A stretch of 64,000 nucleotides of DNA, taken from contig CACVBU010001197.1 in the NCBI GenBank assembly GCA_902728285.1, positions 195,140 to 259,139 on the forward strand. The letters are read 5' to 3'. Positions within the stretch are counted from its first letter, which is position 1, and every line of letters starts with the position of its first letter. The DNA is from Clytia hemisphaerica. Lineage: Eukaryota; Cnidaria; Hydrozoa; Leptothecata; Clytiidae. Positions 3,398 to 57,600 of this stretch are shown piece by piece. A model generated the notes under the pieces. That model saw nothing but the letters and a program-made list of their open reading frames with translations. It ran no database searches and was not told the origin of the DNA. The position numbers were made by a program, and so were the translations under genes.

Positions 3398-4079
3398 TTT
3401 TTGTATACTTGTAATATCTAATCATTTTTAATTCGAAACATCATTTATATATTAGTACTCCGAAAAGCTGACCTTCCAAGTTTTAGTCTAAAATTGACCA
3501 ATATTATTCTCGTGTGCTCTTTCGTTTTTGATAATATGGATTACATACAATCGGGTGTTAGAAATATCAACATTTGCTATTCGAATCGCTCGGGAAGCCT
3601 TTGTACGGTCATCAGTTCAGCAAGAGAAAACTGCATAATTCTGCAGCCCTGTAATATTCCACAACGTTGATGGTTTTTGCAACGCTTCCGCCAGGGGTGC
3701 GCTGTAATTCTACGCAACGCTTTCAATTTTAAAGCTTGTAATTGAAAGTTATGAACGCCGACCAATTTTTTTCGAAAAAAGCGAAGTTTACATGTTTTGA
3801 GATCCCTTTTCAAAAGCAAAAGTTGCAATATTTTGCAGTGGACAGGAAAAGTTGCAAAATTTAACGTTGTAGAATTTGACAAAGCTAAAATTGTGGAATT
3901 TCGGAGTGCTGCAATTCTATGCAATTTTCCGAACTGGTTAGTTAGTCGTTTTGAAATTTTCCAGTAAATTCAGTTAAAAGCGTGGTTGATAAAGCTTGCA
4001 TGACAGTAAGTGTGCGAGATAGAGATTATTATATTTTGCTATCGTTGTAGACATAAAACAAAATATAAACAGCAAGAAC
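3398..4079. other. Spacer between HSD copies 1 and 2
   Basis: AT-rich, no convincing gene. It contains scattered 'GTTGCAAAATTT'/'TGCAATTCT' words at about 3650-3930 that open a 115-codon frame on the minus strand, which I regard as chance. A candidate splice acceptor (…tatcgttgtag) ends near 4049, about 30 bases before the copy 2 ATG. Confidence 0.5.
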
Positions 4080-5003
4080 ATGGAAGAAACATACTTGGTC
4101 TATCTTGGCTGGTTATGTTTGATGTACATTGTATACCATATTGTTTCATACATTTGGTTTATTGTTTGTACTTATTACTTTACTCGCATCCCTTATTTTC
4201 GTAAGGATTTGAAGGAATATGGTCAATGGGCAGTAGTGACGGGTTGTACTGATGGAATCGGTAAAGAATATGCTAAACAACTTGCATCTCAAGGACTCAA
4301 TGTTGTTCTCATCAGCCGTAATGTGGAAAAGTTAAATCAAGTGGCTTCTGAAATCAAAGAATCTAGTAATGTTGAAACGAAAATTATTCAACATGACTTT
4401 TGCAATATTGACGATGAAAAAACTTATGAATCAATGGCTTCTGACCTAAGGGATCTGGATATTGGAATTTTGGTCAATAACGTTGGAATGGCTCATGGTG
4501 GTCCTCTAAAAGCTTTTGACGAATTCAACCTTAATCGAATGTTAAGCATCATAAAAGTGAACAATTTTTCAACTGTTCGAATGACACACATGATTCAAGG
4601 TGGAATGGTCAAAAGAGGGCGTGGCGCAATGGTTCATATCTCGTCTGGACTTGTATTCTTTAAAGGTGCAAAGGCTAACACGTACACGGCTTCCAAACAG
4701 TTTGTTTTGAAGCTAGCAGAATCGTTACGCTTAGAATGTCAAGGAGTTGTAGATCACCAGGTACTCACCACTATGCAAGTGTCGACAAAAATGACTGGAG
4801 CAAATCCTGATTTTGCAACACCTACTTCTGAAAATTATGTGTCGTCAGCTCTTCGTACTATCGGCATTGCGCCCATAGCTTGCGGTACTCCAGTTCATGA
4901 ACTCCATCGTTTATTCATGATTTGTCTGTCGGAGAAAATCAGCAATTTGGTGCATACATATACTTTTAGTAGCAGAAGCGATGCAAAGGGCAAAAGAGAT
5001 TAA
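4080..5003 (+). CDS. HSD17B12-like 3-ketoacyl-CoA reductase / 17beta-HSD, tandem copy 2
   Basis: 307 residues, intronless, same family and predicted role as copy 1. The N-terminal anchor and Rossmann half are almost identical to copies 1 and 3 in DNA as well as protein up to about codon 115. After that the sequence diverges, most strongly in the substrate-binding half and the tail (…SDAKGKRD). Catalytic set intact: TGCTDGIG (54-61), NNVG, HISSG, and YTASK (Tyr202, Lys206). The start is the ATG where similarity to the sister copies begins. The stop at 5001-5003 lies 30 bases before a very long TTCG microsatellite, which would be in or next to the 3' UTR. Confidence 0.93.
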   Translation: MEETYLVYLGWLCLMYIVYHIVSYIWFIVCTYYFTRIPYFRKDLKEYGQWAVVTGCTDGIGKEYAKQLASQGLNVVLISRNVEKLNQVASEIKESSNVETKIIQHDFCNIDDEKTYESMASDLRDLDIGILVNNVGMAHGGPLKAFDEFNLNRMLSIIKVNNFSTVRMTHMIQGGMVKRGRGAMVHISSGLVFFKGAKANTYTASKQFVLKLAESLRLECQGVVDHQVLTTMQVSTKMTGANPDFATPTSENYVSSALRTIGIAPIACGTPVHELHRLFMICLSEKISNLVHTYTFSSRSDAKGKRD

Positions 5004-5033
5004 TTTCCTTTTCAATTTTTCCATTCGATTGTT

Positions 5034-5288
5034 TTCGTTCGTTCGTTCGTTCGTTCGTTCGTTCGTTCGTTCGTTCGTTCGTTCGTTCGTTCGTTCGTTC
5101 GTTCGTTCGTTCGTTCGTTCGTTCGTTCGTTCGTTCGTTCGTTCGTTCGTTCGTTCGTTCGTTCGTTCGTTCGTTCGTTCGTTCGTTCGTTCGTTCGTTC
5201 GTTCGTTCGTTCGTTCGTTCGTTCGTTCGTTCGTTCGTTCGTTCGTTCGTTCGTTCGTTCGTTCGTTCGTTCGTTCGTTCGTTCGTTC
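5034..5288. repeat. (TTCG)n microsatellite, about 64 units
   Basis: 255 uninterrupted bases of the tetranucleotide TTCG, beginning 31 bases after the stop of HSD copy 2. It is open in several frames and yields artificial NERT/FVRS polypeptides, which are not genes. Lack of interruptions suggests a young, length-variable locus. It is followed by short CATT/CACC-rich imperfect repeats to about 5335. Confidence 0.98.
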
Positions 5289-5503
5289 TCCAACCAGTCA
5301 TTCATTCATTCAACCGTCCACTCACCCATTCACACATTCTTTTATCTTTGAAATAATGATACACAAAAGAAAGTTACAACTTTTAAACGTTAGCATTTTC
5401 TTTCCATAATTTAATTTAGTAAAAGTACCTTTTGGGAATATATTTATGTATAGAGTTGGAGATGGCCGCTCTGCATCAAAATGAGGCCAGAAAAGATTTA
5501 CAG

Positions 5504-5852
5504 GCTTTTTTTATAAGAATATCTTCTATAAGAATATCAGGGTGAAAATTGGCCAAATCGTAAGAATACCTTAAGAATAACCTCTAGGGTGAGTTTCACA
5601 GAATTTGATAAGAATACTGTCATTTTGTATTTGGTTAATAAAAAAAAACTGCTTACTTTGTTAGACAGAAATGTAATTTTAGCTCCAAATGTTCATTCAA
5701 AAGTACAAAACTCTCAAATTGATCATTTCTCATGTTTGTAAAAAAAGTCTGAAAAATTAAGAATACGTTAAGAATATTTCACCCTCAATTTTGGCAATTT
5801 CTTAAAAATACTTGACCCTCATCGAAAGTACACTATTCTTATAAAAAAAAGC
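5504..5852. mobile_element. MITE with 'TTATAAGAAT' termini, copy 1
   Basis: Left end GCTTTTTTTATAAGAAT (5504-5520) is matched by its complement at 5834-5852, with one extra A in the run. The interior carries repeated 'TAAGAATA' words and 'agggtgaaaattggcc'. A second member lies at 53066-53391. It has no coding capacity and fills the space between HSD copies 2 and 3. Confidence 0.75.
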
Positions 5853-5944
5853 ATCTAATGTATTTAAAAAAAAGGTGCAAGAATCCATGGTATATAATAT
5901 TTTTGTTTTCATTGCAGATAAATAAAATTAAAAACAGGAAGAAA

Positions 5945-6856
5945 ATGGAAGAAACATACTTGGTCTATCTTGGCTGGTTATGTTTGATGTACATTGTATA
6001 CCATATTGTTTCATACACTTGGTTTATCGTTCGTACTTATTACTTGACTCGCATCCCTTATTTTCGTAAGAATTTGAAGGAATATGGTCAATGGGCAGTA
6101 GTGACGGGTTGTACTGATGGAATCGGTAAAGAATATGCTAAACAACTTGCATCTAAAGGACTCAATGTTGTTCTCATCAGCCGTAATGTGGAAAAGTTGA
6201 ATCAATTGGCTTCTGAAATCAAAGAATCTAGTAATGTTGAAACGAAAATTATTCAACATGACTTTTGTAATATTGACGATGAAAAAGCTTATGAAATAAT
6301 GGCTTCTGAGCTGAATGGTTTGGATATTGGTATTTTGATCAATAACGTTGGAATGGCTTATGGTGGCCCTTTGAAAATGCTCCACGATTTGGATCACGAT
6401 CGACTTTCTAACATCATGAAAGTAAATATGTTCAACGTGGTCCGTATGACACACATGCTTCAAGGTGGAATGGTCAAAAGAGGGCGTGGCGCTATTGTTC
6501 ATATCTCGTCTGGAACAGTCTTCTTGAAATCTGGAATGGCAAATGTTTATTCCTCTACTAAATCATTTGTATTGAAGATGGCTGAAACGCTACGTTTAGA
6601 ATGTCAAGGGATCGTCGATCACCAAGTTTTGACCACAATGTATGTTTCTTCTAAGATGTCCAAAGTGAGACCAGCTCCCACTATCCCGACTCCTCAAGAT
6701 TATGTTGCATCAGCTCTTCGAACCCTTGGTGTTGCCCCTATTGCATGTGGATACCCATCGCATGAAATGATAAGACTCATCTTGTTAGCTTTGCCGGAAA
6801 AAGTTTGTTATTGGGTTTTCAAGATTGCCAGAAGCAGGAAAGAAAAAATGAGATGA
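5945..6856 (+). CDS. HSD17B12-like 3-ketoacyl-CoA reductase / 17beta-HSD, tandem copy 3
   Basis: 303 residues from the ATG aligned with the starts of the other two copies. The frame stays open 29 codons further upstream, but that stretch lies across a likely splice acceptor (…ttttcattgcag at about 5917), so it is probably untranslated. SDR residues intact: TGCTDGIG, NNVG, HISSG, and YSSTK (Tyr202, Lys206). The N-terminal half is nearly identical to copies 1 and 2. The C-terminal half is distinct and ends in RKEKMR. Same predicted activity and ER membrane location. Differences between the copies fall where the acyl or steroid substrate would sit. Confidence 0.93.
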   Translation: MEETYLVYLGWLCLMYIVYHIVSYTWFIVRTYYLTRIPYFRKNLKEYGQWAVVTGCTDGIGKEYAKQLASKGLNVVLISRNVEKLNQLASEIKESSNVETKIIQHDFCNIDDEKAYEIMASELNGLDIGILINNVGMAYGGPLKMLHDLDHDRLSNIMKVNMFNVVRMTHMLQGGMVKRGRGAIVHISSGTVFLKSGMANVYSSTKSFVLKMAETLRLECQGIVDHQVLTTMYVSSKMSKVRPAPTIPTPQDYVASALRTLGVAPIACGYPSHEMIRLILLALPEKVCYWVFKIARSRKEKMR

Positions 6857-7764: not shown

Positions 7765-10700
7765 ATGGTTAATCTTGCACAATATCTAAGATGTGAGATC
7801 ATTCACAAGAAAACAGAATTTGCTGAACCGGCAGCTCGTATCATTGCAAAACAATGGAATCATAAAGACTTTGAACTGAATCGAAATTTGAGAAGTATGG
7901 TACAAGATGGTCGTGATTCATTACCATGTCATTTAGCACTGGTTTTGAATATACCTCAAGATGTAGAAATTCCTGGTGTTACTAACAGCTCTGGAGATGT
8001 TGAACAGTCTAAGAATATTGATCACAGTGATGAAATAACCAGCTCCAGCTCTGGAGATCAGGATAAAAATTCTCAAGAATTGAGACTACCAGCAGGCGAG
8101 GATATAGTCGTTGGACACGTCAAGATTGCCAAAGCTGATGGACGATCAGATGGTGCTTGTTGTATTTCTTATTCATTAGTTGTGGATAGTGATTACCGTG
8201 GTTTAGGTTTGTATGACATAATTGCTTTGTAACAGTGTTCATAGTTCCTCCGTGTAAGACGGATTTCGGAAAAAAAAAGGTTAGGAGAGAGCGCCACTTT
8301 TTCTCCCCGCTAAAGATTTAAGTAATGGTGGTTTAGCCCCAGGGAAGCAATAAAATTCCTTATACATTTAGGGATAGAAGTGGGAAGTAACTGACTTTTT
8401 TGGGCTAGTGATTAAAACTTCCCCCGACTTTCCATAGCCTTCTGCCCATCCTCCAACGTTTTTACCCCGAGTAAAACTAGCGTTGCGCCAAATGACTAGA
8501 TGTGCCAAAAATACATTAATATATTATTTCGAGCGTGTTGATGTAAGCTTTTTAGAAATTTTTAAAAATTTGGAAATGGAGAAGAAGGTTGAAAGGGAAC
8601 TTATACTTTTCCGAAACTTTTAACCACACTGATTTTAAATATGCATTCAGATTTTTTATATCTCTTTTGGTATCTCTTTTGAATCAAAAGTTACAACCTT
8701 CGTTGATAGGTCCAAATAGGCAATAAATTAAAATCCCGTTTGACGTTTCTCAAAGTCCTAACATCATTTTCTTCCTATATGAATTTACACATTTGAAACT
8801 GAAAGGACGTGTCCCATTTTCTAGTTGAAGGGGACTAATCTCAAAAATTTTTCGGAGAAAAGTGACTAAAATTTTTTGGGGTGACTAAATTTATTCCTAC
8901 TTGTCCCCGATAAGGTTTATGAAAAAGTCTAGAGCACTAAAACAACATTTGATTTTGCAGGTTTTGGCAGAGTGTTGACTGAAAGAGCAGAAGATTATGC
9001 TCGATCGCTTGGTTTATCCTACATGTATCTCTCCACAGATGACAAGGTGAAATACTAACAAAGAGTTTTCTTAAAAAATCCTTTAAATGCCATTAGAATA
9101 ATATTATTTCAACAGTGTAGTGTGACTTTACGGAACTGACCCTTTTTTCAGACACCTGGCGAACGGAAAAAAAAGGTTTTCCTATAAATTTATTGATAGC
9201 TGCACATTTTTATCTACAATGGTGAAATACTATAAATTATCCTTATTTTCACTCTACACCAGTTAAAAAGATTCTTCAATTTAGCTGTCATGTCTCCTTT
9301 TTATCCCCTTGCTTTGACTCCACCTGTCTTTTATAGTCAGTGCGCGCAATCACTCTTACACAATCACTCTTAATACTAAAGAGGACTGAAACGGGTCTTT
9401 TACAAATTACATTACAACCAACTCGCGCCTCGTTTTGGAAATAATTTACTGACAACTTATCCCAAATGAATGTCTTAGAGGTATAATATTTGCCCTACAA
9501 AACGACTGGAGGTCTCAAGAGAGATAATCACCTTGGTACCGTAAATTGGTCTAATGTCGACATACCTCATCTAATCCTGATACTCTTCTTTAGAGAATGA
9601 TATTATGAAGGCGAAGATCACTAATTGAAACTATATCCTTAGATTAGCAGTCAGGGAGGAAAAACCTTTTATGAACCTTCGTATTATTCCTATCTCTAAA
9701 AAGAAGGGTGTCGAAATTAGATGAAGGATGTCGACATTAGACCAACTTACTTTAATTGCTACAAGAGGAGACAGAGGTTGAATGTGACTTAATTAATGAA
9801 AATGTATATTATTGTTTTCTCCTTTAACTTTCTAGGTCACATTTTACGAGCATCTTGGTTACAATCAATGCGAAGCCGTCTCATCCCTTGGAAGCAACTC
9901 CAAACTCTTGAACGCCAACCAAGTATCCGCATTAGAAGGTCTATTCGCTAAACGCATCAACATGTCACCACCTGCAGATTCGAACTGTAATACTTGGTTA
10001 AGGAAACGATTACTGGATGAATATCCCATAAAACCAGCTATGGAGAATGTTAAATTGTTGCCAATTTTGTCCCAAAAGATGGCTAATCTGTATGGTGATG
10101 TTGAATCAGTGAAATGTTGCAATTATGTTTGCTTTTGTATACCAATACCATGGCAACAACAAGCTGGACCGTCCTGTGGTGTGTCGGTTCTCAATATGGC
10201 AAATGAAAGCGTGAAAGGCCGCTCAACGAAACGAGAGGGAGAAGAGTTGAATATATGTAAGGAATGTGTAAAAGATGCTTCGATGGAGAAAATCGAGTCT
10301 GGTTTAAGTGCACTGAGAACGGCACTCAAACTTGGAGTCAGTTCAGACGGAGAGTTATTCTGTGCTTATAATTGTTCACTTGTCGGCCAGCTAGCCCTGG
10401 GTTTACATACTAATGTTCTGACGAACTGGGACGTTTCTGTTTTAGTGAACGAGATTTTAGCCGGATATCCGATCCTTGTTCCGTATGATCGTAGCCTGAG
10501 TGATCATCGACCAGGCACATTCCTGGGTGGTAAAGCACATTGGTGTATTGTAGCTGGGTTGATTATACCAGTCTCGGGAAATCGGGATTCGGAATTGATA
10601 AGCCCGATTGATTTCCCGAATGCTGTTTCGACATTATCGTTAGTGGATGACCGTGAAGCGTTCAAAGAAAAATACGAGGAAGGAATTTCGAAAATTGATG

Positions 10701-10870
10701 AAACATTGATTCTGGTTTGTATTCACAGCATGTCAAAATCACCGTTCCTTTGTACGTTCAAAGAGCTGCGTGATTCGAATCAACAACTGGAATGCTCAAA
10801 ATCCAAATTTTACATGGCACCTGAAAGCTTGTCCCATCTAAAATGCAAGTTTTTGACCATTAACCATTGA
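7765..10870 (+). CDS. NAA80-ACTMAP fusion: actin N-acetyltransferase joined to actin maturation protease
   Basis: Three exons in consistent phase (7765-8206, 8961-9046, 9836-10870) encode 520 residues. Residues 1 to about 195 form a GNAT acetyltransferase resembling NAA80: VVGHVKIAK, the acetyl-CoA motif RGLGFG (145-150), and STDDKVTFYEHLGY across the exon 2/3 junction. NAA80 acetylates the processed acidic N-terminus of actin. From about 230 to the end the protein resembles ACTMAP (C19orf54), the cysteine protease that removes the acetylated first residue of actin: a proline-containing segment (CIPIPW), the nucleophile in AGPSCG (Cys290), and the histidine in KAHW (His411). Proteolysis precedes NAA80 acetylation in animals, so one chain would hold both steps. 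An acidic, Ser-rich insert (about 75-115) interrupts the GNAT domain. The domain join lies inside exon 3 with no stop or splice site between. Introns hold AT-rich sequence with no recognised element. Cytosolic by homology. Confidence 0.88.
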
Positions 10871-33600: not shown

Positions 33601-36600
33601 GATAATCTTTGATGGTTGGTTCATTGCTCAAGGAAAATTTTTCATTTTGATAAGGAAAATCCTTTTTTGTTGTTGTATTTCTGAAGTACTTTGATTATTG
33701 CGTTTGCAGAAAAATCTTTGATTATTGTGTTTAAGGAAATTCTTTGATGATTGGGTATCCTTCTAGCTCTAGGCAAATCTTACTTGACAATAGTGAGGTC
33801 GTGTTTCTGTTTTTTATATGTTTTCCTGTTTTTAGGTTCGTGATTTATCGCCCTTTGCTGTGCAGTTAGGGTTTCACATCGAAGAATATGCCTCCAGGAA
33901 AGGTTGTCTGCCGCCTAAGAAACGAAGAAGAAAGAATTCTATATTCATTGCAACTATTGAAAAAGTATGCTTTTTTTTTACTCTGCCAAAAAAATCAACC
34001 TTTGGTATTTTAATTAGTCTCATTAACAATCTTCGGATTCTTTTGATTCACCACCAGCCTCGTGCTCGAACGATTTTGGGCGAGATAATCCTCTTTAGAT
34101 TGCAAGCTACTTTCAGCTACTTGGAAAACCTATAGTAAAACAACGACAAATCATCATTTGTTTCAATTCAAGCATAATAAATTATTTTATTCACTTCATT
34201 ATTGGGAAAAACTTTTGACGAAGTTTTTCTCGACAATAACTTGCCTGATTTAAGGTTTTCTCCTTTACGATATATAGAATTCCTTTCTCCTCATCAGGCA
34301 AATGCTATCATCAACAGTTTGGTTGAAAATGAAAGAACTGAGGAGCTTGGGAAAGTTGTGGTAGATGAGGTATGCTTTCTCTTGTGTTTTCTAAACTGAG
34401 AGGTCTTTGAAAACGAAAAACCTCACAAACGTCGGATTCTGCAAAATAATACTCCGCTTTTCACTAACGAATCATAATCTTAAATAATTATACATTTTGT
34501 TATTATGCCACCTTTTGCATATTTGGGCTCTTCCAGAAAATTTTTGTACATGGGGGATGGAGGATATAGTGTCCGCTGCGGGTAGTGAAAAATCTAGAAA
34601 ATTTGCCTTGTCCGGGGGGGGGGGTAAAGTTGCTCTGTTTGGGGGTAATTTTGCTCTGTTTGAGGATAATTTTGAATGTCCAGGGGGTCAACTGATGCTT
34701 GTCAGGAGAGTCAACTGATGCTTGTCCGGAGAGTCAGACCTGCTGTCTGGGGGTCAAAATAATTTTCCCAGTTAGAACAGTCTAGTATGCTAGACGTTTA
34801 ATCTAGACAGTAGAAAATAAGCAAGAAATAATGGAAATAAAGAATTTTAGTTTTTAGAAACTGAAGTTATCCCATGACAATTATTGTATTGTCGTGGAAC
34901 ACCAAATACCACTGTATTACATGGATCATAAACGATTCCATTCTACTGCCAGAAGTATTTCAAATTATCTGGACAGCTATCATTTTCATCTTGTTTTATA
35001 GAAGTTGTGAAAAAGGAGTCTGTATTTGAATTACGATTCTAGTCTAGAACCTGATTGTTAAATTGAATTTTGTTTTTTAAAAGAGGGGAGGTGTTAATTT
35101 TGTAACATGATTTTTTTTTTTCCGTTTTTGTCTGGGTTTGAACTGTATGTACGAACGGAATTGAATGTCTTTTCGTCGAATCTAGTTTTTCTTTTAATTT
35201 TTGAAAACTAAACTTTTACTTATAAAACTGGTAGATATCGATAAAGCTCTAATCAGGCATTCCAGAGAATAACGTATAAAGAACAAGAAGTTTTATTTCG
35301 TTTCAGCCAAAAGCTTTCCGGTAAAAAAATCATCATCTTCAGTGCTATTTTAATGTATTGCACTGAAGATTTTTTTTTTACCAAAAGATTTTGCCAAAAT
35401 AAAACTTCTTTCTACATCATATCGATGAAGGGATCACTGGTTGTATGTTAGACTTTCTCTCTCGAAATGTCTTGTAAAAAACAAAGAGGCTTTAACAGGG
35501 GCGGGGCTGTTTCTGTTCGGGGGTTAAACTAATGTTAATAGCTCCTGATGAGCTTTTGGCATGAAATTTTCTGTAAATTATTAACTGTTAGCTTTAAAAT
35601 AGAAAAAATTTACACCTAAAAATTTTCACACAATTGACACATTTCCAATACAAATTTATTCTTTATGTCAAATATATCGTTTAAACCGTAAATTTATTTA
35701 ATATTTAGGATAAAATAAGCATTTTGGACCAAGGGCATTTTGTTCTTAAGCCTTTTTTAGAATACAATAGCTATTTTTAACAACGAAGTAAATTTTCGGA
35801 TTTTACTCATTTTGAGCATGATGAGTGAATTCAACAAAAAAACATGACAAGGATCTTGTGTGCCAAATTTCATCCAAAAAAAGACCCACTAGATCAAAAG
35901 TTTAGGGATGGTACAGGAACAGCTCCCCCTAGTTTTGAACCGCCTCTAAAAGCCTAGTATGAATAGGGTTAAAGAGAGATGTCTTATTGATTTTTTATCG
36001 GCTTTATCTGAATTCAAATTTGAAATTTTGTTTGATAATTTTCATTAAGTTTGTCAAATGATCAAGGAAAACGTATGTAATCAGAGTTTAATTTAATCAG
36101 CGGGACAACTTTACAATAAAACTGTTCATTTTTATCATGTTCTTTCTGCCCTCTCACTTTTAAATATTTAACTTTCTTTTTGTCTCCAGTAGATGTTTAA
36201 TCCAATATGTTATTTAATAAAGACTATGTTCCCTGCAGGTGTATTTCGCGAATACTGTTGATTTGAAGTGAACACAAGAAATAAACTGTGAAATTCGAGA
36301 CTACATTGACTCTAGCTTAGAACGAGTTCAAAGTCACATAGATCGAGCTTTTCGCTTTTGATACAACAATTACGTTCTACTCAAATATCACCTCGAATCA
36401 ACCAAAATTTCAAACTGAACTCTATAATATACTGTTACCGAACAATTTGAAGAATACCCGTTCAATTAATTTGAAGATGTAAAGCCGATTCTCGAACAGA
36501 TATGGTCAGACATCTCCAGCTCTGTCTGGCAATACTGCTTTATTTGATGAACAAAAAATGTCACGGGGTTGTTGGTCGATATTTATCTCCAATCGGTGAT

Positions 36601-39600
36601 CCATACAACGTCCTTGGGATTGGTCAATCTTGTTATAATTTACCAATAAACCAAACTTCAACATTGAATTTGAAATCCAGATATCACAACAAAGCTGTGG
36701 ATTTCTTCTTCAAGAAAAATGACTACATACACCCATTATTCAGGAATAAAAGACTTTTCTTTTATCGATACTTTGATATATGTGGTGGCACTGATACAAA
36801 TAATGCTGAGCAACTGGTGACTTTACTGGTTGATTTGCTGTTGAATCCAACATTCACCATAACCAAGGATCCTTCCAAGAAAGCTAGACGTAAAATCACC
36901 AACTGGAAATACAGACCTAACATCCTTATCATGTTTACATATCTAGAGGACCACCTTTTTAAACTCCTCGCTGAAATGTTAAGTAAAACAGATATTCTGG
37001 TTTTAAATTTACGAAGTGACATTAGATTTCAACAAAACGCGTTTATTCTACCCTCACTAACGCTAGGCGCTGTCGATAAGGTGAAATCAAGTTTTCAAAA
37101 CTTGACCAAAACGATGAATTGGAAATACGTCACTATTGTGTTTCTCCAAGACCAATATTCGAATTCTGAATTTTATTTCAAAAATTACCGAGATCTATTT
37201 ATCAAATCTACATCATGTTTCAACATTGAAATTGTCAATGTGTTTCACTTTACGCCTACAGTAGCAAAGCTAAAGAATGACAGTAGCAATACTATAGTTT
37301 TAATCGGCTCTTCCATTCAACAACAACTGTTTTTAAGGGACTATGGACGTTCCAATAAAACATGGTTCGTCAACGAGAACTACAGGCCGTTATCTACGGG
37401 CCCCGGGTTTATAATATCGTTACGTGATAGCCGCTATGAACGAAAGACAAGGTCGTTATCCATTGTTAATGGACACGCTGGACTTTTCCACTATAGAATG
37501 TTGGATAATGTTTTGAAAGGTGTTTTTTCTTTGGAATACATTGTTAAACTTTACGAGGACTTGAATTTCTTTATACAACAGTACAAAGAAAAAGCTCGCT
37601 ACTTAACTGATCTTTTCATTTTGAAATGGTATGTTCGCCAGAGTTTTTATTATAGAGATTTCAAAGTTTATGTTAACAACAAACAGATTCAAAGCTCCTT
37701 AGATATTGGTGTTCTCTCTCTCATGTTAGCGCCCTATAAAACACCAACCGCCTGTCCACCAGTCGATTGTACACCTGGCACAGAATACATGTATACCAAG
37801 TTAGCCGCTAATCAGACATACTGGAATGAATCGTACCGGTGGACGTGTCAACCCTGTGCGAACGGCTTTTATAAAGGCTCTTACGGAAACACCACGTGTC
37901 GGCAATGTCCCATAATGCACCTTCCGAATAAACGAAGAAACTCTTGCTATGATCCTTATAGTAAACCAAGCATCTCTTCTCAAAAAACGTTCGCAATATT
38001 CGCTTTTCTCTTGACTTGTATTGGCTTACTATTTTGCCTTCTAGTTTTTATTGCTTTCGTGAGATATCGAACTACTCCTGTGATGAAAGCTGCTCATATT
38101 CCTATGACGTATGCCCACTTGCTTATGATTTGTACAGGATTAATTGTCCAGCTATTCGCTTACTTTGGTGAGCCTTCTATTGGTAAATGCTTTCTTCGAT
38201 TGATAACATTTACGTTGTTTTACACACTCATGATTGGTATGATACTCATCAGATCGCAAAAAGTATTAAGAGCATTTACAATGCGAGTGAAAATGACTCG
38301 AACAGACTTACGAAAATCAAAAGCTGGTGAAATCTTTTTCATTTTGGTCCTTGTCTTGGCTTTCAACTTGATATTATTCGTGCTGGCTTACACGGATCCT
38401 GTCCAAATTCATATTTGGGTCGACCAAGAAAAATTGACGAGGACATCTTATTGTGGTGTCGAATCAAAACTCAATTTTGTTATTGGATTTACCATATTAC
38501 TACAGTTCATTTGTTTCATCCAAGCATTCCGTGGTCGGCGATTACCGGGTGCTTTTAAGGAAACCATGTCAATCGTTTATGGTAGTTTTATTAACATACT
38601 GGTTCTCACCGTTTCTTACCCTATATCTATTTTCCAGAAAGATATTTTGAATCGTGAAATTGTGTATTGGATTGTTGGTGTATTATGTATGAATATTTTA
38701 GTGATTTTTTGTTATTTTCAACGCGTTTATGTAGCCATTTTTCGACCTGAGTTGAATACAGTTTCATATTCGAGGAATTTGTTGATGAACAAAATGAGTA
38801 AGGATTCTTCAAGAGCAAGTGAAAGAACGATGTCAACGGCCATAAGTTGTCAATGAACGACAACTGTATACTTTCTCGGATTTATATATTACTTAGGTGT
38901 ACAAACCTTCGCGAGCAGAGGTAAAAATTTGCGAAATTTATGGCATTTGCTTTAGCGAATTTAACGAAAAAAGATGTAAAAATGAATATTTTCACACGAA
39001 AAAATTACTTTGGGTGACAAATACTTCTTTGAATCGGGTTAAAAGGGTTTTTTCGCAAATGGCCCTTTCAAGAATAAAAAAATGGACTAAAAAGGATTAA
39101 AATTCGCGCAAATCGCGAAAAAATTCCTGCTCGCGAAAGTTTGTACGTTTGTACCCAAAGTATTATATGTTTGTAATTAATTATTTTATGAAGATTGTTT
39201 TTATTTGATCTTTAGAATAGGAATCTAAAAACTCAAATCCTGATGCAGTGGAGTCTCGATAGCTCAAGCCTCTATCACTCCAAACAGTTAGCTGTTTCCT
39301 TCAGTTAGCAACGCGTTATAAACTATACTCCATAAATCCAAATCTCCTTAACTCGAACAAATTTGCTCTTCTCATGCGTGATCGAGTTAAAGAGATTCCA
39401 TTGTATTCTAGGAGGGTGTGTTGAACGGTGATTAAGAATACGGCTATCATTATTTGATTAATCCGATCCAATTCGGTTCTCAAGGAATACCGAGTTTATG
39501 TCTCGGAGGATATCGAAGGCGGCTGTAAGTGAAATTGATACAAAACAAAGTCGATAGTTGATGTACGACTCTATATCGCCTTTGCTCACCTAAAAAACAC

Positions 39601-42600
39601 GGTATTTTGGTGTTTTTACCGTCGTCGAGCAAAGTGGACGGTGATTTTGGAGACATGTCAACTTTGCTTTATACCGTCCCCCTCGATTTTTCTCGAATAC
39701 ATAAACTCGCTAATGCAGAGTACAAGGAGGAAATTCGAAAAATTAATCGATTCGTAGGCTGAATCATAAAAATCTGCTAAAAACCGCTTGCTTTATGCCA
39801 CACGGTAATTACGGTAATTTATAAACCCCTGAAATATGATCCTAAAAGCTCCCTGGTCGTGGTCCTGCACAACAGGGAAATTCAAACGAAGGAGAAACCA
39901 AAAAGGCAAGAATTTAAAGCCTATTCAAGATCATCAAAACAAAAGATCAAATTCATGTTTTGATATGAATAAGTAATTGATTGTGATATTCCTTTAAATC
40001 CCAAATAGCAGTTCTGAGCACTAGAAAGTTATGCAAGGTTTAGGGTTATCTAAATTTCCTTTTGTCTCAAGAATGCATATAAGAATATATACTAGCTTCA
40101 TCCGTTAATCTGTATTTGTTCATTTCTTAGCTTCATATGATTGGTGAAGGCGGAGGTCGTGCAGCTTTGTTGGAAATATTGCTGACCAAAATCATGTTCA
40201 AATTCAGTAAGTTGTTACTGCGCATGTCACAGTTTGAAATGAAGATGGAGGGAATTCTTTTTCTCCAATAAGTTTTAGATAATCTTCATAGTGTTCTTCT
40301 TATCGAGAGTTTATTATTATTGTATTTTCTTTTAATATTTTATTTTTTTGCTCGAGACTTTTTTAATGACGTGATCTTTTCTAAAGGCAAAAGCGATTGA
40401 TAAAGGGTTTTCGCACATTTCGCGATAAAGTGGAGTCCGGCCTTTAATAGCGTAAAAGTCGATCAATTTTGAAATTTTCAGGTTTTCGTTTATGTTTTGA
40501 TCCTCATTTTCTCTCAAAATTATTCTTAAAGATATGTAGTCGATTTATTTGCTAGCCTAGTAATTCCTTAAGGGAGAAAAAAAGTCGGGGATGTTTCTTG
40601 CAGAAAATCTTAAAAGGAAATAAAAATAGATTCAAACTGAAGTACGGACATAATCTGCAATAATAATCTTCTAAATCAGAAAAGTAAAAGCTATCGAAAT
40701 TCTGCAACAAAAACTCAAAAAAACATGTATCTTAATTTGTTTAGAAAATTACAAAATTACAAAAACTAAGTAAAATGCTAAATAGAAAAAAAGTATCGGA
40801 TACTAAAACAAGTACGGACTGCTTAAGAAAATGATCAAAATGCTTATAAAAAAATACTACAGTATCAAAAAATTGTTGATACTGCTTGTTAGATCGTTGA
40901 ATTATGTTTAATTAGCGGGGTCAGGTTTTGCTGTGTGATTGTTAGGGTCAACGCATGCTTTGCATGAGTCATCGTATTCCAATCCAGCTTGGCATTGTTT
41001 GCAATAGGTGATTTTGTTACTGCAATGGTAGAATTTGGTTTTGTCGTTAAGTACGGCAAACATTCCGTCAGTTTGGGTTGTACAGAACGTAGTATCGCAT
41101 GTGACGGGAGCAACCGTATCTGTTACTGTGGCAACGACCGTTGGACACGTGACTTTGGTTTCTGTGGAGATGAAAGAGCAAGATATCGAAAATGTTACTG
41201 TTGTCACTAAGCTCGAAAACAAAAACTGACCTCGCCATACTTTTTGCACTTTTAGTTTTTGGAGCAACCCTGTGTAGGAGAATAGATCTTATCGGAGTTA
41301 TTGATTTTTCTAAAAAAGCGATGCATTGTGGGACTGTTTCGGGGGGATTACAATAGAAATCTCTTAGGAATTCCTCGAGGGAATTCTATTGTAATACCCC
41401 CGAAACAATCCCACAATGCATCGCTGTTTTAAAAAAATCAAAAACTCCGATAAGGTCTATTATCGACGTATAAAGAACTAGCTTACAATTGCGACACATT
41501 TTTTCATGCTGGCACAAACTTAACTTATATTATTATTATTACAGTCATTTCTCTCTAGTTCGAACCTCTGTTATTCGAATCTTTTTGTAATTCGAACTAA
41601 AACATTGGTCCCCTCAGCTGGAGAGTGGTATAAATCACTCTCTGTAATTTGAATCTTTCTTTAATTCGAATGAAATTTTTGGTCCCTCTTGAAGATCGAA
41701 TTAGAGGGAGTCAACTGTACTCTGCCTGCAGATTGCACTAGCATGGAACACCGTTTCACTGTATGTAGACGGTGTCAATAAAAGGTTCAACCCACAGTTC
41801 ATTTCTACTAAGTTTAAACTAAGAGTTCTTACCGTCGCTTTCTCTTAAGCACATGTTACATTTGTTGATAAAGTGAAGGTTGGGTGCACTGCATTGTTGG
41901 CATTCCGGTTGTCTGTTATCCTCAAAACATGTGTAAAACCAATTGCTGTTGTCAGGATGACGAAAGTTACCGACTTTGGTTCCACCAAAAACACCGCACT
42001 CATCCAATGAAACACCTGTAAAGGATTTTTAAGTTTTTTTTTACATTAGGCCAAATACGTTAGGAGTTTTTTTCCCATATTACAGTGCAAACCCGGGGGG
42101 GGGGGCAGTCAGGCAAATTGACCGACGGGTATTTGCGGCGGTTAAGAGTATGTTTTTCATAAATGCACTGTAAGGGTGGAAATTTCAGCAAATTTGGGAA
42201 AAATTGCAAACTTTTGCTCGAAAGTGTTGATTTTTTTTATCTAAAAGAGTTTAAAATTTGAAAAAATGCACTGTAAGGGTATAAATTTCACCGATTTTTT
42301 TCTGCACTGTAATGATGCCATTCTAAAAGCCAATTTTTTCGCCACACATACCATCAGTTGGTAAACCGAACCCACTGCCTCCCCGGGAGCGCAGACCAAA
42401 CGTGCTAGCCTGAAACTTAGAGTGATTACGTTGGACAGATTGTTTTGGTAGCTGTCATCATTCTTGTGTTGATACAGATAGGGGGAGGTCTGTAGAGGTT
42501 CCGTTTTCCCGTCAAAAGTTTTGCTGAATCCCGGAATCCCGAAAATTGAAAAAAATAATAACACCGTCACACCGGTTTGTAGAGGTTACAATACCGGTAT

Positions 42601-48600: not shown

Positions 48601-51600
48601 GGGCCTTCTCCTTGACAGCTGAAAATATTCTTAAGAATCAATAAACGGGGGGGTGGAAAATTTTCGAAAAATTAACAAGTGAGGGGGACGTTTATTTGGA
48701 ACCTAAGAGTAGGTAAAGATTTCATTCACTTTTTCACCTTTCTCTGGCTACATTTGACCTTTTTAAGGCCTTTTCCAGCTGTTTTTTGACCAACGTTTTT
48801 CATTGCAGCTCCCAAATTACAAGAATTACCTTCCGAAAAAAGAATTTAAACTCTTCTTTTATTTTGTGTGACCTATTCCTTGATGGCCTTGACCTTCTGA
48901 GGCCTTTTAGGGTGTTCTAACATTTTTCCATCAAAAAAGGTCTCAACACTTTTTTTTCAATCATGTGTCTTCCTAACCGAAAATGCAAGCAATATCAGCA
49001 GCAATATATTTCGGAAATTTATTGTGCTTTTCTCTGGCCTCAGAAAAATGACGAAAGGTTTTAAACAACGACGATATAAGGAATGTGTGAAAGAATTACA
49101 GTTGACGCTCTCTAATTCGATCTTCAGGGGGAATTGGATTTTCATCGAATAAAGGAGCTTATCGAATAAGGGAGCGACCTTTATGAGAATTTCTTGTTGA
49201 CGGGGACTTCAAATTTCATCGAATAAGGAAGCCTATCGAATAAGGGAGCCTATCGAAAAGTATAACGTCGAATTAGAGAGCGTCAACTGTATAACCAAAT
49301 TAGTTGTGTTTTCTTTCACTCTTGCGTCTGCTCCTGCAGATATAACTTTTTAGATATTTCAACACTTTACTTAAGTTTTTTAGCCGCGATGACCTAGGAT
49401 TTTATCGTCTTCTTGAAGCTGTTTGAATTTGAATGCAAGGCGTTTTGATAGATTTTTTTGGAACTATTTTATTTTTTGAAAGTGTTCCTTCAGATGACCT
49501 AGAATCTTATGCTGCATGCATCCCCTCTGATATGTTTTGATATAGGTGATACCCAAATTTGGGGTAACCTGTTTCGATTTCCTTTAAATAGATTTAAAAT
49601 TCCAATGATTGTATTAATCTCTGGCCATTCAAATTTTAAATTCAAATTTAATGAAATCTAAAGATCTAGCTAATCAAGTTTATAACTCGAGAACACTAAG
49701 GTGGGGGTAATTCTCGAGCGGGAATTTTATTCACGATATACGCATTCTCTATATCAAAACATATTAGAGGGGATGTGTGCAGCCTACTAGAATCGGGGAA
49801 TGCCTTTTTGTGTGTTCGTGTCTGTGTGTATATCCCAAATACTTTGGAGCAGCCTGGAGACTTCAAAGATGGTCGGATTTGGCACACCTTGGTTGAATAT
49901 CTAATGACTTTTTTTTTCATATTTCAAAAATGTAGAATTTTTGGGACCTGGGCACTAGTCTTCCAAAACGAGGTTAAATCTTTTTGGACTGCCTAAAGAC
50001 TCCCCAAATGGTGGGATTCGACTGAAATTTGGCACATTTATTCCTTGTTCGTTTGTTTTCCTACAATCTGGCCTTAAAAATCTTGAATAATTTGAAGGTC
50101 AAGAAATTGAGCCCGGTGCGTTGCGCACTACTCTTTAATAAAGATAATATTTATTAGAAATGGATGGTGGATCTTGGAAAAGGTCCTACTAACGAAGGAG
50201 ATAAATGGTCGAGAAGGAAAGAATATTTGGTGGTTGGTGGGTGTTTAAATGAGATCAGTTGCGGGATTCTATTTTATTAAAAACACAAATGGTCAGGGAG
50301 GTGTCAGAAAATCGTACATTGAAGTTTTCATTTAATCCCTTCCAAATTTTTCTATTAAATGATCTAAGTGAAATTGAAATTACTACAATAAAGTTAAAGT
50401 TAAAGTAAATTTTTCAAATAGTCACTACGACAAGGCTTCAGATGGCTTCAGGTGTGTCTTCATCGTTTGATTTTTCATCTTCCATTTCGTCTCCACCTTT
50501 GGGGCAGTTTCGGATGAAACAGGGTGTCATATCGTAGACTGTATCTGACAAGGACTTAGATGGTTCCATTTCGTCTCCACCTTTGGGGCAGTTTCGGATG
50601 AAACAGGGTGTCATATCGTAGACTGTATCTGACCAGGACTTAGATGGTTCCATTTCGTCTCCACCTTTGGGGCAGTTTCGGATGAAACAGGGCGCCGCAT
50701 TGTAGACTGTATCACCCCAGCCCATTTCGTCACCCCAGCCCTTTTCGTCACCCCAGCCCTTTTCGTCACCCCAGCCCATTTCGTCACCCCAGCCCATTTC
50801 GTCACCCCAGCCCATTGGATTTGCCAAGGTAGTAGTGGTCAGTGCAAGGACCAAAGCGAAGATAGTCAAGCCTTCCATTGTTTCTAAAAAATCACAAGAC
50901 TATATAATATTAATATCTTAAAGTAGTGAGACTGTGAAATGTGTTGCCCTGAACTGGGAATTTTCGGGCTAAGAATCTTCGAACAAGAAAGAAACCTAAT
51001 ACTTTGATGTTTTTTTCTTTCAAAGAAAACGTTGTTTTGCCTAGCCTGGTGGCCATTGACTAGTGAACCTGGACGCTACCTATCTATTTCGGACAAGAGA
51101 AAACAGGGCCTCAGAAACCGACAATGAAATTTCCCATACATAATTTTGCCCAATTCATCTAGTCTTCCTTTTGAAAGAGAATTTACAAAAGAAGACTCTT
51201 ACCTTATTTCGTCGTTTTTCAAACCAAAAATGATGAGAATTGTAAAAAATGGATGCCCATTTATGCATATAACTTATTTGAATTTTAGATAAAGAGTTCT
51301 ATTGTTTTATTGCGTTGCCTAACAAAACTAGCCTTAAATGTCTCTTTGTTTGGACATGCTGGCCTAGTATGTTGCTATGAGAATTATTTTTCGAATCTCG
51401 CATATCAAAGCAATTCGCTTTATTTTTTTTAAAATAAATTTTCTTTATTTTATAATTAATTTTTTTTGAAAATTTTCCGCGTTCTCTATCTTTTGCACGT
51501 TACTTGGTTTTATAGCGTCGTCATTTTATCGAGCCTCTAAATGAAAGAAACGATTCAGCCAGGCGTAAAACTGGTACCAAACTTCCTTTCGGGGAAACCA

Positions 51601-54600
51601 AAGCAATTCTCTTTTTTACAGAAGTGTTAAACTTTTGAATGATCTAGAAGAAGATATTGTTGAAGCACCATCCTTACAAGTCTTCAAAGAACGTTTGATA
51701 AAATAGAATGGGAGGGAAAACTTTGTGAAAAAATATAAAATCAAAGGTTCTGTTTCAAAGAGGTCAGTAGATCAGCGAAATATATTGCTATAAAATTGAA
51801 TTAAATTAATAAAAAAAAAAAATAGAAAAATATTATTTTGAAACAGAGCTAGTGATGATGTAACTCAAATTGATTCATACTTCGAATTTAAGAATCCAAT
51901 ACACGCTTTTTGGACCTACCCCGGTGGGGTAGAGGTCCTTTAAATTAACCGATGTCCGTCCGTTCGTCTGTTCGTCCGTTCGTCCGTCTGTTACCAGCTT
52001 TTCTCAGGATTGGCTCATTAGTTTTTTTTGATTTTTGGCACAATGATGCAAAATGGTAATGCCCAAAATGTGACGGAGCCCGATTTTCGAAAAAAAATTA
52101 TTTCCGGCCGAAAATGCCGGAAATATGCCGGAAAAACCGGTTTTTTGGCATTTTCTCGAGATTTCATCATTAGTTTTTTCTGATTTTTTGCACAAAGATG
52201 CGTATTAGCAATGCCCAAAACTTGGCCGAGTCCGATTTTTGAGAAAAAAATTTTTCCGGTCGAAAATGCCGGAAATATGCCGGAAATCGCCATTTTTGCA
52301 GATTTTCATCGGACTTTTTCCTTATTTTTTTTATTTCGTTGTCTTTCACACAAAAACATTATTAATAGCAATGCCCACCATTAAGCATGGTTCAATCGTC
52401 AATAGAACTGAGTTTTGAAGCCGGAACTTTCTAAAAATCGCCGGTGCAGCCCATTTTCGCCGGAAAAACGGTATTTCTTGATTTTCTCGAGCTGTACTTT
52501 ATATTTTTTTATGAAATTTTACACACTGATGCAAAATGATACTACCTAAAATGTGACGGAGCCCGATTTTGGAAAAAAAAATTTTCCGGCCGAAAATGCC
52601 GGAAATATGCCGGAAAAACAGGTTTTTTGACATTTTCTCGAGATTTTGTCATTAGTTTTTTCTGTTTTTTTGCTCAAAGATGCGTATTAACAATGCCCAA
52701 ATCATTGCCGAGTCCGATTTTTGAGAAAAGATTTTTCCGGCCGAAAATGCCGGAAATATGCCGGAAATCGCCGTTTTCGCAGATTTGAATTGGGCTTTTT
52801 CCATACATTTCTTTGTTTTTCACTTAAAAAAATTATTGATAACAATGCCACCATCAAGCATGATTCAATTGTCAATAAAACTTTTGCAATTCTGCAACCG
52901 GAACTTTCTATTTCTTTTTTCCCTAAACCCCTCCCCCCCCCCATCAACAATCAATGATGACATTTAATGCATTTTCGCTAAGCGCTATATTTTCTTAATG
53001 ATTGGTTTTCTCCTTATTGCTATCTAAGTTTCATCATCAGGTAGGTCCATTCAGCATGTTGCTTGTTCTTTTTATAAGAATACACTTTAAAATATAAGAA
53101 TGTCCATGATGAAAATGGCCAAAAATTTAAGAATAATGCTAAGAACATCACCCTCGTGGAATTTTGCTACTCAAGCTAAGAATGCCATTTTTTGTCAATT
53201 TGGGGTAATGCTCACTCCTTTCACAAAAATGTCAATTTTATGCTTGAGACGTATGTACTAAATGAATGTTAAATCTAGTCTGAATTAGGATCTTAACCTA
53301 AGAATGCAGTAAGAATATTTTAGGATGATTTTCCCAAAAAAGAAGAAGAAGAATATCCATGATGAAATGGATTTACACCATTCTTATAAAATTAGTAGTC
53401 ATTTAGTAGTCATCAGCGTGTAGTCATTTCTGGTGGGGATAGTCAAGATCTGACTATGAATCTTTTCTCTCGTACTGTCGGTGAGGAAGCCATTATTTCA
53501 CGTTTTTACTCCTTATGACAATATGAATTGACACAAATGTAAATAGTTTTATTGAAAAAAAAGTTTGTCTTCTCGTCTCAAAAAAAAGCCCGTTTCTTTC
53601 GACGTAAAATGGAGAACCAATCAAAATACGAGTAAATGAAATCTGTGTAAAACCATTTAGCTAAAGTCATCATCAAAACGTTCAGCCTATTGTTCACATC
53701 TCCTGTTTTATGGTTTTATGAGAGAAGGATCGGGACCAAAAGATCTAGTTGTTCGTCTCCTCCAATGCGCTTGCTTGTTGCAGTTAAGAAATTTAACGAA
53801 GTTTGTATGTTATGGATGGTTCTCAACTTTGTAGAATTTGGGAATGTCTGTCTGTGTGTATGCCCCAAAACTTTAGGGCAGCCTGGAGACTTCAAAAATG
53901 GCGGGATTTGGCTTAAATTTTGCACACTTGTTCCTTGGGTGAATATCTGGGGGTGTTTTTTTTCCATTTTTTGAAAATTTTACTTTTTGGAGACTGGTGA
54001 CGAGTTTTTCTCCAAAACGAGGCTAAAACTTTGGGGCAGCCTGGAGACTTCAAAAATGGTGGGATTTGGCTGAAATTTTTCACACTTGTTCCTTGGGTGA
54101 ATATCTGGGGGTATTTTTCCATTTTTTGAAAATTTTACTTTTTGGAGACTGGGGACGAGTTTTTCGCCAAAACGAGGATAAAACTTTGGGGCAGCCTGGA
54201 GACTTCAAAAATGGTGGGATTTGGCTGAAATTTTTCACACTTGTTCCTTGGGTGAATATCTGGGGGTATTTTTCCATTTTTTGAAAATTTTACTTTTTGG
54301 AGACTGGGGACGAGTTTTTCTCCAAAACGAGGCTAAAACTTTGGGGCAGCCTGGAGACTTCAAAAATGGTGGGATTTGGCTGAAATTTTTCACACTTGTT
54401 CCTTGGGTGAATATCTGGGGGTATTTTTCCATTTTTTGAAAATTTTACTTTTTGGAGACTGGGGACGAGTTTTTCGCCAAAACGAGGCTAAAACTTTGGG
54501 GCAGCCTGGAGACTTCAAAAATGGTCGGATTTGGCTGAAATTTTGCACACTTATTCCTTGGGTGAATATCTGGGGTCTACAATTGGGCCTATAGCTATAA

Positions 54601-57600
54601 AAAATTTGAAGCTACTGAAGTTGAGCCCAGTGCGTTGCGCACGTTCGACTATTTATGACTCAAAATTGTCCAATGATATTGTGATTTCCGCTTCTAAAGT
54701 TGACACTACACTTTTAAGAAACATGAGGCTCAGAATGCCTAAAATCTAAGAAACATCTAAGAAACATGCTGAGGCTGAGAATGAGAAAATAACATTGTTT
54801 ATTTAGTTTTTTTTTAAGAACCTTCCAATCAAAACAAATGCTTTTTTTTCTTTGCATGAAAAATAGGCTTGATTATGTCAAAAAGTTTAGAAACATGTAA
54901 GAAACGTTTTTAAAGGCTCAAAAGGCCGATTTCTTAAGAAACATTGAGGCTGCTTGGTAAAACTAGTTTCTTAAAAAAAAACGTGTATACTCTAATTTTT
55001 CTCATAGGGTTTTAAAGAAGAGAACAAACGTTCCGATCCTGACCATTTGTGTTCGTTAGCCTTGGAAGTGATTCCCCAACATTCTTGTATGGTGTTTTGT
55101 GCTACTAAGAAAAATTGTGAAAATGTTGCCTTGTTGATCGCACAAGGTCTACCAAGGTATTAATGAACGTGGCATCGGAATTCCATGCTCTTTTCGCTGA
55201 ATTTCTTTTTTGCCAAAACACCTGGTGAAGGCATTATTGCATTTGTCAAGGTGATAAAACTAGGTGTTACTGTTTAAATTAAGTTCTACAACCCTTACGG
55301 AACATCTGGGACAAATTTCAAGCTTTTGTAACAAACTGAAGTCTTTTTTGTGTTACCAGACTCCCCTTTTGAGTTTTCCGTTAAAAGGTCACGATGAATT
55401 TTTGTCATTCTTCCTGTGAGATTCTTTACAGACAGTGCCAGGCTTATAAGAACTTATAATTTCTGTATGGAGGAGATGGGACATAGTCCCACTATGGGTT
55501 ACATCTCATGTTATCTATCATAATTTTTATTTTTGTCACCTATTTAAGAGACTTGAGGAACCATCGGGAAGAAGAGAAATACGCCCTCCTTCAAAACATT
55601 CACAACGTAGCCAACGGTGTCTGTAAGACCCTGGCCAGGACCATACCCTTCGGTATAGCTTACCATCACAGTGGGTTAACCATGGATGAGAGGAAGCTTG
55701 TAGAGGAAGCTTATTCTTCTGGCGTTCTCTGTCTATTATGTTGTACGTCGACCTTAGCAGCAGGTGTCAATTTACCAGCTAAAAGGTATTATTGAGTGAT
55801 CATTTTCAAGAATGTTTTGATTTCGGATTCGATAAGAATTCCATAGCCCACTATATCTTTTTTGTTTTATTTTACGATTTACCAAACTAAATTGCGCCAT
55901 CATTGTTTTGAATTCAATAATGCCGGTGACGAACATTATATAGCCAAGTTATTTACGTCAAATGTTTGTTTGTATAGACCTTCACTAAGTCGTTCGAAAT
56001 CTTTGTTGTAAATTTAAAACACAATAAAGAACGACTATGAAAATTTAATGTTCAATCTTATGTTAAGTATGGCACTTACAAGACAATAACGTTAAAATAT
56101 CTACTGTAATTATTTCAAATTGAAATTCTTTTAACCCTATTTGGGCCGGGCCTTTTTTGAGGTTAAATAATTCGGAGGGGGGAAAAAACATCCCCCCCCC
56201 CCTTCCATAAAATCCACAAAAAGGGTTGAAAAAGCTTGAAAATTCTATCATGTAAGTTTATGTTTATACCAAGAAAAGTTTGATGTTACTCATAGTTTGA
56301 TGACGTCAGCACTTTTTTGTAAGAACTTCATGATTTAAACAGCTCCTGTTTTGATATTCTGGATAGCTAGATAAATTGTCTTTCGACAATATCTAATAAG
56401 ATATTCGAAATTGTCAAATTCTGGGTCTGTATAAGGCGCCAAAATCGAAAATATTATTTTTTTCGAAAATCGCGCGCCATTCTGAAAAAAATGACGTCAT
56501 CCAAAAATTCAATTCTTTCTTGCATTACAACATCTAGTTAAAGTCCATACGTTAACTGGTTCCCAAACTATCAGAGTTTGCATTTTCAAAAAAAATCGAG
56601 CCTTTTACCTGTAAAATTTGGGTCACTTTTTTAAAATGCTGACGTCATCAAATTTTGCGGGTTTGAATTTCAAAAATTTTTTGTTGGATAATGGGGTAAA
56701 ATAAAAGCTAGGAAAACTTTTGAAATTTCAAGGCAATAGCTCTAATTTTAAAAGTGTAACGACAAAATCTTTGTCAGGAATTATTTTGTCTCACCTGGTC
56801 CAAGTAGGGTTAAGAGTTAATATTTTAATCTTTTCTTGTTTGTAAGAGTAATACTTCGATCACCATATGTCGGAAACCAATGCATGTCACGTGCTCAATA
56901 CAAGCAAATGATTGGACGAGCCGGAAGGGCTGGGATTGACAGTTCAGGTGAAAGCATCCTAGTCATCGCAAAGAAAGACAAGAATAAACTCCACAAATTG
57001 ATCAGAGGAGCTATGGGATCTTGTTCAAGCAGTCTGATGTACGAAAAAGGGAAAGGACTCAGGCAGCTGATTCTGTCCCTGCTCGGCTTGAAGGTTAGTT
57101 GTTTTTGCACACTTTCAAACTGGGTTGATACCGCACCCTCTAAAGTTGAACCCCATTCTTTGTCAACCTACCCCAACCTTATCAAGAAATTCCTCTGAAC
57201 CCTATTACTTTCGGAGTAACTCCAAATCAAAATCATTTCACCCTTAGGCTCTGAGGGACGCGATTTTACATCTTGAAATAGTCGCAAAATACAAAATCCC
57301 ATACTTTAGGTCCCAGCTCCTTACGACTCGATTTAAAGGGGCATTGACCGTATGGTTTTTGAAAGAATATCAAATTACCTTTCAAATGGTACCAAAAGGA
57401 TTGTTTAACTTCCAGATTACAAGCTTTAATATCATTATGAAGTATTAAGTTTATTATAGATATAGAAATTATATAATTTTTTCTAGATTTTCAAAAATGT
57501 ATTCAAAGGGTTAAAACAAAACAGAAAACGTACTCTCTAAAAACGTACACCAAACTTTTTCTCCTACTCCTACGAGTTTAACCAAGAAATCGAGGTTAGA

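Follow-up and report, generated by a model that had tools for sequence, protein, structure and literature searches.

A Clytia repeat protein carrying the Lys-conopressin sequence, probably by convergence

A gene in a 64,000-nucleotide stretch of the jellyfish Clytia hemisphaerica (contig CACVBU010001197.1, positions 195,140 to 259,139 of the forward strand; hereafter the window) encodes a protein with three copies of CFIRNCPKG. This is, letter for letter, Lys-conopressin, an oxytocin/vasopressin-family peptide that is listed for molluscs and a leech in a table of PMC7181382. The explanation that we favour, with somewhat better than even confidence, is that the gene encodes a secreted precursor of repeated cysteine loops, restricted to Clytia, which would have converged on conopressin rather than descended from an oxytocin/vasopressin–neurophysin gene. 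An exact sequence of this hormone family, found in a jellyfish used as a laboratory model, is of consequence either way. Should the peptide prove to be produced and active, either the family's history or the reach of hormone mimicry would have to be revised; otherwise, the gene is a clean example of how a hormone sequence of nine residues can arise in a repeat protein unrelated to the hormone, and a caution for motif-based neuropeptide discovery.

Three exact hormone sequences in a tandem repeat

The protein is encoded by a minus-strand open reading frame (ORF) that starts with ATG and in which a hydrophobic leader is followed by six GWGD repeats and then by three ten-residue units that bear CFIRNCPKG (positions are those of the window unless another contig is named):

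50438..50878, minus strand: coding sequence of the 146-residue precursor (putative exon 2); the frame of the paralogue (locus L002) is intact too
50819..50878, minus strand: 20-residue leader, putative signal peptide by hydropathy; DNA identical in the paralogue
50712..50816, minus strand: array of an 18-nucleotide repeat, 5.8 copies, encoding GWGD six times; not in the paralogue
50660..50689, minus strand: unit 1, residues 64-73, preceded by NAAP
50576..50605, minus strand: unit 2, residues 92-101, preceded by DMTP
50492..50521, minus strand: unit 3, residues 120-129, preceded by DMTP

An earlier sequence-only reading of the window had described this 146-residue frame, its three exact units in 84-nucleotide repeats and its lack of other cysteines, and we found all of these in the ORF. 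Every one of the six cysteines lies inside the three units, and the frame stops 17 residues past unit 3 with no further cysteine. Within the 84-nucleotide period that carries the units, 50480-50563 and 50564-50647 are 99% alike and 50648-50731 is 79% like the first, and the 30 nucleotides that code for each unit are the same in all three copies. The 18-nucleotide repeat ahead of the units, which that reading had overlooked, encodes GWGDE[MK] in five of its six GWGD copies. The protein has 31 acidic and 11 basic residues, and its repeats are rich in Gly, Trp, Asp and Glu. The same reading had called the protein secreted and multi-copy; the copies and their sequence are exact, and secretion is suggested by the signal-like leader, whose hydropathy peaks at a mean of 2.65 over 11 residues from residue 3. 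Four matches of the protein to solved structures (E 0.13 to 7.3) were taken as chance, and RNA folding of the coding strand gave a z of 0.14.

Given the residue frequencies of the six-frame window, CFIRNCPKG is expected 0.0011 times in the six-frame translation of the 417-Mb genome (951 contigs, the window lying on contig C827) and 1.8e-7 times in the window, so the match is not ordinary noise. The looser motif of the oxytocin/vasopressin family, C-[LIFY]2-x-N-[CS]-P-x-G, is expected 13.7 times in six frames genome-wide, 0.16 times if 10 million coding residues are assumed and 0.008 times if 500,000 secreted residues are; its three matches in the six-frame window are each the CFIRNCPKG of the 146-residue ORF. 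Across the genome, the pattern CF-x-[RS]NCP, which is blind to loops of the type CYVHGYC, gave eight hits (control, 1), five of them in the gene and its paralogue and three in copies of one dispersed repeat. This repeat of about 280 nucleotides (L019, L020 and L023) has a 19-residue frame with a chance CFLRNCP and is thus an example of a hormone-like heptamer arising in repeat DNA. A DNA pattern for GGDEME, the sequence that ends each unit, gave 11 genome hits, six in the two genes and five in unrelated frames (reversed-pattern control, 2).

Tests of family membership

Oxytocin/vasopressin precursors carry a single hormone copy straight after the signal peptide (described in PMC8557429). The window protein has three copies, the first at residue 64. 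The Pfam family Hormone_4 (PF00220) scored 6.8 bits against a cut-off of 17.1 (residues 68-72, E 8), its nine-position model being a weak test, and all eight families listed in the Pfam scan fell under their cut-offs, the best being CxC7 (E 0.007). The sequence-only reading had also claimed that the precursor has no neurophysin. Consistent with this, among open stretches of at least 25 residues the window holds no neurophysin-like cysteine-rich frame, the maximum being 9 cysteines per 80 residues in other genes or frames. The neurophysin hidden Markov model PF00184 matched nothing in the genome, but the control genomes gave no match either, so genome-wide absence is not established and the claim stands for the window. 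By the features tested, namely neurophysin in the precursor, copy number and processing, the window protein is not a member of the oxytocin/vasopressin family.

The known Lys-conopressin/neurophysin precursors of Conus, Lymnaea and Erpobdella, as given in PMC7181382, share CFIRNCPKG with the window protein, and Gly comes next here also. They differ in that the window protein has three copies, away from the leader, no neurophysin and a cnidarian host; it has Asp-Glu after the GG, in place of an expected basic cleavage site, and Pro before the first cysteine (Cys1).

A paralogue with a divergent unit

A second gene lies on contig C431. Its 106-residue product is, residue for residue, the UniRef entry A0A7M5V478 ('Cnidarian restricted protein', Clytia hemisphaerica). 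This entry was the sole relative listed when 5.8 billion clustered proteins were searched twice by a method that requires shared five-residue words (407 and 537 candidates); the 146-residue window protein itself was not listed there, only this shorter paralogue. The paralogue also has three units, the first of which has the loop CYVHGYC and then GGE, followed by the same GGDEME. In the two genes together, all six units start with Pro-Cys and end with GGDEME, and five of the six bear CFIRNCPKG, the unit copies being identical in three of three cases in the window protein and two of three in the paralogue. Because one of the six has the loop CYVHGYCGGE yet keeps P-C and GGDEME, the constant parts are P-C and the spacer, and not the conopressin residues. 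The DNA of the CFIRNCPKG unit is identical across the five copies of both genes, as would be expected from recent exchange; with five units identical in DNA, however, selection and recent exchange cannot be told apart.

The two genes lie in a duplicated block, and the rest of the putative gene structure is as follows:

49290..51516, no strand: duplicated block matching C431:100999-103094, about 2.2 kb, dispersed, with sharp ends
50884..51202, minus strand: putative 5′ intron read from the sequence, donor AATAAG/GTAAGAG, acceptor TTTTTTAG/AAACAATGG
51203..51404, minus strand: upstream part with putative non-coding exon 1, inside window 51151-51404, which matches a relic on contig C908 at 84%
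50150..50278, minus strand: possible polyadenylation signals, AATAAA at 50278 (lost in the paralogue) and at 50155 (kept)

The paralogue and the C908 relic share the putative intron donor; a spliced-leader acceptor at the 3′ end of the putative intron would be an alternative. In one alignment of the block, the leader had an identity of 1.0, the putative intron 0.98 and the part upstream of it 0.97, while the 3′ part had 0.90 and the stretch beyond it 0.95. The aligned coding part of the two genes has an identity of 0.94 with 120 gap positions. The net length difference between the frames is 120 nucleotides, which preserves the frame, and gaps outside the frames are mixed, some being multiples of three. 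The last 76 aligned codons differ at four positions, of which two lie in spacers and two in the C-terminal tail; each of these changes replaces an amino acid, and no silent change occurs.

Two other origins of the block were rejected. For a haplotype copy or assembly artefact, the long match of C827 to C431 stops abruptly at either end of the block, with short repeat matches only outside it when 18.5 kb of C431 was compared with 22 kb of the window. For capture by a transposon, the best terminal inverted repeat matched at 12 of 20 positions and the longest shared flank words were 6 and 7 nucleotides; no terminal inverted repeat or clear target-site duplication was seen at the block ends.

A search of the genome with the block DNA gave 81 rows (best 40 of 1,611 candidates scored), which are the block itself, the C431 copy (2), the C908 relic (2) and 76 repeat rows that match window 49504-50152. 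The relic (L039:4217-4867) retains exon 1 and the donor at 84%, with pieces in altered order, and no coding exon was recognised within 9.9 kb of it. Our DNA, pattern and protein searches found no further coding members and this one relic only. A tandem array of a 155-nucleotide unit at window 53867-54575, 3 kb away, is related to the dispersed repeat at 49504-50152 in the downstream part of the block, for which there are at least 76 rows genome-wide.

These data are consistent with a young gene family, known from two coding members and one relic, whose product would be an acidic and probably secreted repeat protein. It is very improbable that the ORF is instead no working gene but a frame that repeat expansion left open within the duplicated block. 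The block is recent, its downstream part consists of dispersed repeats and a relic copy exists, all of which would suit such an origin. Against it, there are two intact frames whose 120-nucleotide net difference is in frame (a weak point, as the outside gaps are mixed), the leader DNA is identical whereas other parts of the block are 90-98% alike, the GC content of the two frames is 0.51 and 0.48 compared with 0.35 across the window, and the product of the second gene is a UniRef protein.

Processing and amidation

The window protein has no GR, no GK, no dibasic site and no GKR or GKK, and the paralogue has one GK, in its tail. The name 'Lys-conopressin precursor', given in the sequence-only reading, is therefore not borne out, as the protein has none of these sites at which the peptide could be released or amidated. 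The GG behind the nonapeptide reads as a spacer and not as an amidation donor, because it stays in the paralogous unit that lost N, P and K. Pro stands just before Cys1 in all six units (as TP, AP or NP). Acidic residues flank the DMTP units on both sides (VYD/MTPC and GG/DEME), and unit 1 instead has VYN/AAP. Release of a peptide is conceivable and would need unusual cleavage; for amidation, the chain would have to be cut between Gly and Asp.

Cnidarian precursors are often multi-copy, with acidic residues flanking the N side and classical processing on the C side (as described in PMC9545775). Among the hallmarks of cnidarian preprohormones given in PMC8638164, similarity between copies is high here and canonical C-terminal GKR, GKK or GR sites number zero; a signal sequence and N-terminal protection (pGlu, XP or XPP) are further hallmarks in that account. 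In the Clytia RWGamide precursors described in the same paper, one cyclic copy stands among linear amidated peptides, whereas the window gene is without amidation or cleavage sites.

Published screens have been built on such sites. The script of a hydrozoan screen that included Clytia demands three GR, GKR or GKK sites, used together with TBLASTN with known precursors (PMC8638164); the window protein has none of these sites, and vasopressin and oxytocin occur nowhere in the main text of that paper. A 2025 screen that reported 36 new Clytia genes demands KK, RK, KR, RR, GK or GR together with neuronal expression, and section 6 of its text names no such peptide (PMC12440616); the window protein has no site of this kind and the paralogue only its GK. 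No cnidarian gene of this type appeared among the titles listed in our literature search, most subscription journals lying outside that search.

Origin of the hormone sequence

The sequence-only reading had left a choice between a relocated hormone and an independent origin. Independent origin is the better fit. Points in favour of convergence are that the sole listed relative comes from Clytia, that the window protein has no GR, GK or dibasic site, that one sister loop is without the conopressin residues, that the DNA of the five units is identical, that the four codon differences between the genes are all replacements, and that no neurophysin was seen in the window or with the genome model that lacked a control match. 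Under the convergence that we favour, the units would be built as P-C-x4/5-C-...-GGDEME, each most likely closing one small disulfide loop. The protein might be exported whole, or proteases other than those for dibasic sites might cut it into short cyclic pieces without an amide (for example, of 12 residues with an optional leading M), and hormone activity would not be expected. CFIRNCPKG may have arisen within a fast-changing tandem repeat and then spread to five of the six units through unequal exchange or gene conversion. One parallel is PF1 of the Clytia planula (PMC12225738), described as Clytia-only, short and secreted, with conserved cysteines and several homologous genes; the likeness is by kind only, taken from that description.

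Several points weigh against convergence. By chance, a protein with a leader would seldom match a natural hormone exactly over nine residues (about 6e-7, assuming 450,000 secreted residues), and the identical DNA of the copies leaves room for selection on the loop. Restriction to Clytia is based on the two protein searches. A probable cyclic neuropeptide of Clytia, GPPCRWGCamide (PMC8638164), also has prolines before its first cysteine, like the TP-C and AP-C here. The exact match in a protein with a leader also keeps in view two less likely readings in which the hormone sequence would be functional.

In the first, which we regard as unlikely, the gene would encode a selected mimic, an exocrine peptide of tentacle, gland or mucus that evolved to act on receptors of the oxytocin/vasopressin type in bilaterians that are its prey, competitors or predators, as is thought for the conopressins of cone-snail venom. 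Besides the exact identity to the peptide of molluscs and a leech (PMC7181382), such a peptide would need neither neurophysin nor a receptor of its own. Hormone mimics are known in venoms and secretions: the doppelganger peptides described in PMC12962067 have a hormone sequence outside its normal gene context, as here, and ribbon-worm toxins have homology to vasotocin-neurophysin (PMC9132205). However, there is no amidation signal, Pro directly precedes Cys1 in every unit, and the sister unit CYVHGYCGGE is without the hormone residues. In Aplysia, which has the same nonapeptide, the disulfide-bonded non-amidated form had half-maximal effective concentrations of 3,500 and 1,000 nM on the two receptors; the amidated form without the disulfide bond gave 65 and 70 nM, and the authors found no difference from the native peptide (reported in PMC10067623).

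A true member of the oxytocin/vasopressin family is less probable still. In this reading, a hormone segment, inherited or gained by horizontal transfer, would have been relocated to a repeat precursor that has lost neurophysin and is cut at acidic residues in the cnidarian manner. The exact nonapeptide again speaks for it, as do the multi-copy, acidic-flanked precursors usual in cnidarians (PMC9545775), given that the DMTP units are acidic on both sides. By contrast, the classical C-side processing of cnidarians described there is missing in the window protein, no neurophysin was seen (in the window, or with the genome model that lacked a control match), a relative was found in Clytia only, and the sister unit has CYVHGYCGGE. 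In screens that covered 80 cnidarian species, there was little or no likeness to bilaterian neuropeptides (PMC9545775), and in receptor trees a small anthozoan orphan group near the oxytocin/vasopressin cluster has no medusozoan members (PMC11087051). Whether cnidarians make oxytocin/vasopressin-type peptides was an open question in a 2020 review, which did not treat the family as established there and according to which vasopressin-like staining in Hydra was traced to Hym-355, the C-terminal PRGamide being common to Hym-355 and vasopressin (PMC7266959). It is overall doubtful that this cnidarian makes a cyclic peptide identical to Lys-conopressin and active on oxytocin/vasopressin receptors, released from a multi-copy, neurophysin-free precursor by cuts at acidic and Gly residues, whether the peptide serves the jellyfish itself as a signal or is a mimic directed at other animals.

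A narrower form of the convergent explanation is that the protein is a structural, adhesive or mucus repeat protein whose loops are cross-links that are never released, the hormone match being a coincidence. Its acidic, Gly-, Trp-, Asp- and Glu-rich repeats, the lack of usual cleavage sites and the chance CFLRNCP in a dispersed repeat of the same genome would agree with this, but the protein is short, has six cysteines only and faces the low chance of an exact match, and we consider this form improbable.

Other features of the window

Three tandem short-chain dehydrogenase frames (PF00106; open for 312, 326 and 346 residues) lie at window 2459-6856 on the plus strand. About 30 bases behind the second is a perfect TTCG microsatellite of about 64 copies (5034-5288), which is open in several frames. 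Other domain-bearing frames of the window encode an ACTMAP-like protease (9836-10870), a chitin-binding CBM_14 domain (40911-41288) and HTH_61 (56821-57198). A class C G-protein-coupled receptor (7tm_3) is encoded at 36475-38856 on the plus strand by a single unbroken frame of 793 residues; the lack of an intron would be unusual and might mean a retrocopy.
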